DNA of 64,000 nt, taken from contig JAGWMJ010000004.1 in assembly GCA_028871815.1 (NCBI GenBank), forward strand, positions 248,001-312,000, in the 5' to 3' direction. The stretch is from Armatimonadota bacterium. Its GTDB lineage: Bacteria > Armatimonadota > Chthonomonadetes > Chthonomonadales > Chthonomonadaceae. The position numbers and the translations under genes are program-made. Below, piece by piece: positions 44,367 to 46,119 of this stretch (positions are counted from its first letter, which is position 1; every line of letters starts with the position of its first letter). Under the pieces are notes generated by a model that saw only the letters and a list, made by a program, of their open reading frames with translations, did not search any database and had not been told where the DNA came from.

Positions 44367-45002
44367 CTACGGAGGCGGAACGCCCTCAGGCTCCGACTGT
44401 TCGGTTTTTGCTGGATGCAACTTCCGTTCAATAGATTGCGCCACCGCAATCAGGTCTGATGGGGCCGGCCGTACCCGGTCGTTCGGGTTGATGTATGCGA
44501 ACGCAATACTGGCGTCGCCTCCTACAACAAACGTGGCCGCTCTCAGGACAGTACTGCCGGTATACCGACCCGCATAGAGTTTGGCGGCATCGCCGGTCTT
44601 GTCCGACAGAAAGGTAATCCATTTGAGCTTGTACCGGTCACGCATCTGCTTCTGCGCCGCCGGATCCTCGTTGGATATCGCGAAAACCTGAGCGTGCGTT
44701 TTGAGAATGCCGGATTTGGATAGCCCAACCTGAGCCATCTGCTGATTGCAGTACGGTCACCAGATGCCACGGTAAAAGATCAGGATCACAGGGCGTTTGC
44801 CAAACTGGCGGCCCACAGTTACGCTCTTACCGTCCACCGCGGGCAACGTGAATGAAGCCGCCTTCTTTCCAACGAACCCTTGCGTGTAATCGGGCGGCTT
44901 CGGTGGAGGTTGCGGACTCTGTACGGCGGTCTGGCACGCGGAAGGCATGCATGTGACGAGCAGCGCGGTCGCGGCAAGCGCCATGTTAACCACGCATTTC
45001 AC
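44367..45002 (-). CDS. Peroxiredoxin-like protein, candidate selenoprotein (in-frame TGA at residue 82)
   Basis: The frame runs from GTG 45002 (GGAGG seven bases before) to a stop at 44367, 211 residues if the TGA at 44759-44757 is read through. A hydrophobic leader (NMALAATALLVTCMPSAC) suggests export, perhaps as a lipoprotein. The AhpC/TSA fold follows: AASFTLPAVDGKSVTVG, VILIFYRGIW, then TGA, then PYCNQQMAQVG. Relatives have FYRGxWCPYC, so TGA stands exactly where the peroxidatic Cys belongs, with resolving Cys85 next. The remainder (VFAISNEDP, ITFLSDKTGDAAKLYAGR, ATFVVGGD) is intact. Selenocysteine is likely; a simple TGC-to-TGA nonsense change is the alternative. Confidence 0.6.
44719..44739 (-). 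promoter_or_regulatory. Candidate bacterial SECIS hairpin
   Basis: Beginning 17 bases after the in-frame TGA, GATGGCTC (44739-44732) pairs with GGGCTATC (44726-44719), eight pairs including two G-U, around the loop AGGTT. The loop resembles the AGGUCU loop of the E. coli fdhF SECIS, and the distance fits the bacterial consensus (apical loop roughly 16-37 bases after UGA). Confidence 0.45.
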
Positions 45003-45453
45003 GGCGATTCCTCCATTCTGGACCATAGATTGACCGAACTGTACGGCGGTATTTCGCTGCCCTTGGACCGCTTACCTGCGTGCGCGGCATAGTCAACGCA
45101 AGTAGGGCCGCTGCCAGGTCTCAACTACTGTGCGCCGTCCCCCAGCGCAGCGGGGATCGTGATGGAGCCCGGCTTGGCGCGTCACGCGAAGCCCTTTGAC
45201 TCGTCCATATGACTTGCGGTACAGACCTCCTTTGGAAGCTGAAGTCGCAGGAGCAATCAGCAATAGTGCTCGTTCCCGGCGGCAGCTCAAGCGCCACTGC
45301 CTGTGAATTTGCTCACGATGGCGTACACAGGCGGCCCGAAGTGAAACGATACCGCGCGTGAGTGTGTCTAAGTAGATGTTTCCACCCGGAGCGCTGGGCA
45401 AGTGCCGCCGCAGTAGCGAGGCGGCCTTATACCGGGCAGGAAGGAGATGCGTT
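45003..45453. other. 451-base intergenic region
   Basis: It separates the divergent peroxiredoxin-like gene and the ECF sigma gene. No conserved protein is seen in any frame. It holds a possible ECF-type promoter at 45342-45371. TTGACT on the minus strand at 45096-45091 lacks a good -10 partner. Confidence 0.5.
45342..45371 (+). promoter_or_regulatory. Possible ECF-type promoter of the sigma factor gene
   Basis: TGAAAC (45342-45347), 18 bases, GTCTAA (45366-45371). TGAAAC and GTC-type boxes about 16-18 bases apart are typical of ECF sigma promoters, so the sigma factor may transcribe its own gene. The predicted leader is about 75 bases. Confidence 0.4.
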
Positions 45454-46119
45454 ATGGCGGCGGCGAAATCAGATGGCAGTTCGACGGCAGCGCTCCCACC
45501 GTGCGATCACCGCGAATTCCAGCGACTCATTGAGCGCACTAAGCGCCAAGCCTATAACATGGCATACCGCATGACCGGCAATCGGGAAGATGCAGAGGAC
45601 CTCACGCAGGAGGCCTATTTACGCGCGTATCGCTCCTTTGGCACCTACAACCGACAAATGCCGTTTGAGAGCTGGTTCTTTCGCATCCTCTCCAACCTCT
45701 TTATCGATCTGGTGCGTCGCAAGCCGAAAATCCGACCGCTCTCTCTCGATCAGCCCGTTTCCGATGAGGAATCCGACACGAATCTGATCCTTCAGGTCGC
45801 CGACGAATCGGCAAATCCGGAGCATCAGGTACTGGATGCGATGCTCGATGAGAACCTCCAGGCGGCACTCGACTCGCTGCCGGATCCGTTTCGCATCGCC
45901 GTTCTGATGTGCGATGTGGAGGGAATGAGCTACGAGGCGATCGGGAAAGCAATGCACTCCTCGATCGGGACCGTCCGATCGCGAATCCATCGCGGAAGAA
46001 CGCTGTTGCGGAAGCGTCTTGCGGCGCCTACGCCGGCAAAGCGTGGACTGCGTGCGCGCCTCAAACCGTTGATCCCTACGGACTCGGGAGAGCGATCCGG
46101 AACGCCCGAGCCGGCCTGA
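45454..46119 (+). CDS. ECF-family RNA polymerase sigma factor
   Basis: A 221-residue sigma factor starting at ATG 45454 after AGGAG. Region 2 reads AYRMTGNREDAEDLTQEAYLRAYRSF and SWFFRILSNLFIDLVRRK; region 4 reads LDSLPDPFRIAVLMCDVEGMSYEAIGKAMHSSIGTVRSRIHRGRTLLRKRL. This is the SigE/RpoE-like ECF pattern. No anti-sigma gene follows; TatD is next. A basic C-terminal tail (RARLKPLIPTDSGE) is extra. Its regulon is unknown. Confidence 0.92.
   Translation: MAAAKSDGSSTAALPPCDHREFQRLIERTKRQAYNMAYRMTGNREDAEDLTQEAYLRAYRSFGTYNRQMPFESWFFRILSNLFIDLVRRKPKIRPLSLDQPVSDEESDTNLILQVADESANPEHQVLDAMLDENLQAALDSLPDPFRIAVLMCDVEGMSYEAIGKAMHSSIGTVRSRIHRGRTLLRKRLAAPTPAKRGLRARLKPLIPTDSGERSGTPEPA

Follow-up and report, generated by a model that had tools for sequence, protein, structure and literature searches.

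A hairpin at positions 44719..44739 on the minus strand of the window, by which we mean the whole 64,000-nucleotide stretch of Armatimonadota DNA that was analysed, is very probably (roughly 0.93) the apical arm of a bacterial SECIS in the mRNA of a presumably exported Prx-like UxxC selenoprotein. The gene concerned, of the AhpC/TSA type (44367..45002, minus strand), contains one TGA in an otherwise open frame, encodes 211 aa from the GTG at 45002 when this TGA is read as Sec, and ends with a TAG stop codon at 44369-44367 on the same strand. A probable ribosome binding site, GGAGG, is recognizable in the sequence 7 nt upstream of the GTG (45010..45014, minus strand). The in-frame UGA (44757..44759, minus strand) opens the UxxC motif, which reads W-U-P-Y-C; this Sec is U82 when counted from GTG 45002 and U90 in the longest frame, which starts at ATG 45026. 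The Cys codon of the motif follows at 44748..44750 on the minus strand (C93 of the longest frame). Standard annotation would split the gene at the TGA into fragments of 89 aa and 123 aa, which the Sec reading corrects.

Analysis of the translated product, with the TGA taken as Sec, placed it among the peroxiredoxin-like proteins. It matches PF00578 (AhpC/TSA) above the cut-off (E=4.2e-19) and, as a second domain match, PF08534 (Redoxin, E=5e-15), and an alignment profile of the protein found peroxiredoxins in the PDB with a best E of 8.7e-18. The AlphaFold2 model (pLDDT 84.8), numbered by the longest frame from ATG 45026, has the strand and helix order of the Prx/Trx type, with residue 90 (Sec) directly N-terminal to a helix spanning residues 91-102. 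The TGA aligns with the first Cys of CxxC in homologs. In the alignment with TxxC peroxiredoxins of the phylum, their Thr stands opposite Sec and their peroxidatic Cys opposite the motif Cys, which indicates a thioredoxin-like arrangement and rules out a classical peroxiredoxin selenoprotein (TxxU, with Sec at the peroxidatic position). Because the modeled fold is of the Prx/Trx type, Sec immediately precedes the first active-site helix and Cys stands three positions after it, the protein is most likely a thiol:disulfide oxidoreductase or a peroxidase. Its N-terminus is hydrophobic and signal-like, and the protein may therefore be exported. A sigma factor-like ORF, judged by eye to be of the ECF type, lies divergently from the selenoprotein gene at 45376-46119 on the plus strand of the window; a regulatory link between the two is possible from this layout.

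The first-pass annotation had described an eight-pair stem with two G-U wobbles, beginning 17 bases after the TGA and free of a bulged U, with a loop AGGUU that is close to AGGUCU of the fdhF SECIS and has the G and the following U that the bacterial SECIS model asks for. All of these structural details were reproduced. The stem GAUGGCUC / GGGCUAUC (44739-44732 paired with 44726-44719) has eight pairs, two of them G-U, starts 17 nt after the TGA and encloses AGGUU at 44731-44727. RNAfold closes A44731-U44727 as a ninth pair, leaving the loop GGU at 44730-44728 with an energy of -9.8 kcal/mol. The bacterial SECIS model calls for an apical loop that is small, contains GGU and is separated from the UGA by 16-37 nt, on an upper stem of 4-16 bp with an energy of -7.5 kcal/mol or lower (PMC13188914). 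The window hairpin agrees with this published model at every point, as the E. coli fdhF SECIS does, with a loop of GGU (or AGGUU), 8-9 bp, -9.4 to -9.8 kcal/mol, and a spacing of 25 nt to AGGUU or 26 nt to GGU. Unlike the bacterial SECIS consensus and fdhF, its 9-bp stem has no bulged U. The folding check gave a divided answer. In an isolated 60-mer starting at the TGA another fold wins (-15.6 kcal/mol), a CUGC/GCAG stem with the loop AAUCA, and the pair probability of the hairpin is about 0.13. If the initial 12-18 nt are made unavailable, which a ribosome decoding the UGA would do, the hairpin is the minimum free energy structure with a probability of 0.6-0.7.

How often such a hairpin arises by chance was evaluated in the long ORFs of the window. 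Under a loose rule that asks for G within the first two bases of the loop and a spacing of 16-37, 3.4% of 6000 codon contexts held a perfect hairpin of at least this strength; stricter loops lowered this figure to 1.6% with G[G/U] and 0.4% with [N]GGU. The 383 Cys-codon contexts of the window gave 3.4%, 1.8% and 0 for the same three rules. When the codons of the protein were replaced at random by synonyms, 25 of 400 recoded versions matched or beat the hairpin. With the loose-rule frequency and these recodings taken together, the hairpin alone is only moderately improbable and by itself suggestive, no more.

The genome that contains the window is 98% complete and carries the machinery for Sec. 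A tRNA-Sec is located on the same contig as the window (69.9 bits, over the cut-off; ARAGORN reports tRNA-SeC(tca)), and SelA (2.9e-139), SelB (1.6e-105) and SelD (2.4e-104, with one internal TGA) were all detected. Other selenoproteins of the genome were sought by family, for SelD and formate dehydrogenase. The TGA of the SelD gene (L018, G000:C10) lies at about C10:76183-76181 on the minus strand, within AGUAAKIGAERLAQ, and is followed by a CAGGUU hairpin; SelD of this genome is thus a probable selenoprotein in its own right. The selA gene directly adjoins it. A formate dehydrogenase-like gene (L108:1915-1917, G000:C18) has its TGA in ENQARTUHSASVPGLGASFGRGA and a 7-bp hairpin, GGUGCCC-GGUCU-GGGCGCC, with the loop GGUCU, making it the probable third selenoprotein of the genome. 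Both TGAs occupy positions at which SelD and FdhA are known to carry Sec. In all three hairpins GGU stands at the apical loop or next to it. The first-pass annotation's comparison with the fdhF loop is a fair one, given the GGUCU loop of the genome's own formate dehydrogenase-like gene. That loop sits at the fdhF distance from its UGA, and the window loop 8 nt further from the UGA than that of fdhF.

Orthologs were collected from 291 genomes of the phylum, and the resulting group has 10 members including the window, separated in the search with the alignment by E values of 6.5e-68 or better against 5e-30 for the next sequence. The motif codon is TGA in seven members (window included) and Cys in three, with no other residue. 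The selA gene is present in six of the seven TGA genomes of the group, the window's included, and in 0/3 of the Cys-ortholog genomes; the exception, in which selA was not found despite the TGA, is a 73% complete genome (G015). One TGA sequence from outside the group (L073, genome G226, selA present), more distantly related and the eighth in all, also has the hairpin, which brings the TGA relatives of the window to seven, with selA in 6/7 of their genomes. The close Cys orthologs L064, L065 and L068 (genomes G032, G033 and G080), where selA was not detected, are devoid of the conserved hairpin and are probable Sec-to-Cys replacements accompanied by hairpin loss. On the tree, the Cys members sit at two places inside the group with modest support, which makes two or more separate replacements of Sec by Cys probable. 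Another TGA-bearing search hit (L028) was not counted as a member, as its motif position is Thr and its TGA lies at the frame end. Four more distant AhpC/TSA homologs from four other genomes of the phylum (L091, L095, L098 and L099) have a TGA inside the matched stretch; a pattern search did not find the active-site motif in them, and they were not counted either.

Comparison of the eight codon-aligned TGA sequences revealed a common hairpin in which, with the T of TGA numbered 0, bases 18-23 are matched to bases 27-32. In this UGA-proximal family hairpin 87.5% of cells are paired and double changes occur at four pairs; its covariation score was reached by 0/500 shuffles, in a set of eight sequences related by descent, which is few for covariation. 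In our reading of the alignment, several of the compensatory changes appear to be synonymous, for instance at the third codon base of Gln and the first codon base of Leu. In eight Cys homologs the pairing came to 54%, which did not exceed that of shuffles, and a consensus structure was absent. A model-type hairpin of -7.5 kcal/mol or lower was present in 8/8 TGA sequences versus 4/27 Cys sequences (Mann-Whitney p 5e-5, a value that ignores kinship). The first-pass annotation had held that TGA-bearing relatives lacking the hairpin would speak against its reading; a model-fitting hairpin was found in all seven. Structure is therefore kept with the UGA and shows covariation, but it occupies two registers.

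The two registers become apparent when the window is set against its relatives. The site of the relatives' proximal hairpin corresponds to 44727..44741 (minus strand) of the window, where only 3 of 6 pairs can form; compared with most family members, the window has its loop displaced by about 5 nt away from the UGA. The nearest homologs, L062 and L063, keep the proximal stem at -4.0 kcal/mol, and their strongest hairpin (-10.7 and -12.7 kcal/mol, loop AGUU) stands 25 nt after the UGA, at exactly the position seen in the window. Across the window, L062 and L063, 7/7 pairs of the window stem hold, with one A-U to C-G double change and four one-sided changes. Over the whole TGA set the exact window stem is 52.8% paired, no better than shuffles, and it was rejected as a family-wide conserved element. 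The compensatory changes anticipated in the first-pass annotation are thus clear in the hairpin about 5 nt nearer the UGA, while the exact stem it had described is kept only in L062 and L063. Since these two homologs share the distal stem with the window and still keep the proximal one, the signal seems to have shifted its place within the coding sequence. We lean slightly towards a move of about 5 nt by the SECIS hairpin within this one family, by way of double formers resembling L062 and L063, with the UGA and the motif unchanged. The move could have gone either way, the window being the first branch of the tree (support 91/92).

The presence of two registers also bears on which structure SelB would recognize. 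The UGA could code Sec while the SelB target is a fold nearer to it, either the CUGC/GCAG stem or what is left of the proximal hairpin that the relatives have. The preference of the isolated 60-mer for the former and the more proximal hairpin of most relatives are consistent with such a target; however, the AAUCA loop has no G and, starting 9 nt after the UGA, is too near for the 16-37 nt spacing of the model (PMC13188914), only half the pairs of the relatives' proximal stem can form in the window, and the strongest hairpin of L062 and L063 stands at the window's own position. We regard a proximal target as improbable, at long odds against the distal hairpin.

Readings in which the TGA does not specify Sec are less probable still. 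A single change turns TGC into TGA, and hairpins as strong as this one turn up by the loose rule in about 3% of coding contexts, so the TGA might be an ordinary stop that arose when a pseudogene or a sequencing error broke a Cys codon, with the hairpin there by chance. Against this, the genome decodes Sec and carries other Sec-site TGAs, and in seven relatives the corresponding codon is likewise TGA, with the frame intact past it. These shared TGAs and the complete Sec machinery were the grounds for rejecting a pseudogene or sequencing error, and we give an ordinary stop hardly any weight. The frame open beyond the TGA would equally suit a UGA read as Trp or Cys, or programmed read-through; yet within the orthologous group only Cys or TGA occurs at the motif position, and the genome has the full Sec machinery, tRNA-Sec included, both of which argue against other routes. 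Such decoding is extremely unlikely, and there is no need for an alternative genetic code. The SECIS reading is in turn supported by the Sec machinery, by two more Sec-site TGAs with GGU-type hairpins, and by the TGA with a hairpin in seven relatives versus Cys orthologs without a conserved one.

From these computed features we infer the following course of events for the distal SECIS hairpin. A ribosome arriving at UGA 44759-44757 would melt the first 12-18 nt downstream, allowing the hairpin to form and display its GGU loop. SelB would then bind this hairpin and deliver Sec-tRNA(Sec), so that Sec goes in and termination is avoided. In the putatively exported product, Sec and the Cys three residues on would work via a selenenylsulfide.

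Genome surveys, from the earliest onward, have recorded Prx-like UxxC/UxxU thiol:disulfide oxidoreductase selenoproteins of pfam00578 with a bacterial SECIS (PMC1794560, PMC9312934, PMC13188914), and the window case resembles them in its AhpC/TSA domain, UxxC motif, bacterial SECIS and Cys homologs. No named Prx-like subfamily matched the window protein; its best NCBIfam match is NF040769 (SelL-related redox protein), at 41.7 bits versus a cut-off of 120. It shares the superfamily and the motif region with SelL, a UxxU diselenide Prx-like protein, but its second motif position is Cys where SelL has Sec, and with this score and UxxC in place of two Sec it was not assigned to SelL. A literature search on Armatimonadota found no paper on the selenoproteins of the phylum. 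Neither the kind of protein nor the kind of signal is new, and the position of the signal is offset by about 5 bases between relatives.

The window gene adds one member, with several relatives within the phylum, to the Prx-like UxxC family, and the change of register between relatives is the point that may deserve attention. Two SECIS positions and Sec-to-Cys replacements in one orthologous group constitute a small natural series, which bears on the tolerance of SelB for spacing and on the decay of the hairpin after Sec loss. If the proposed move is true, the family would provide a natural case of an in-gene recoding signal sliding without loss of function.
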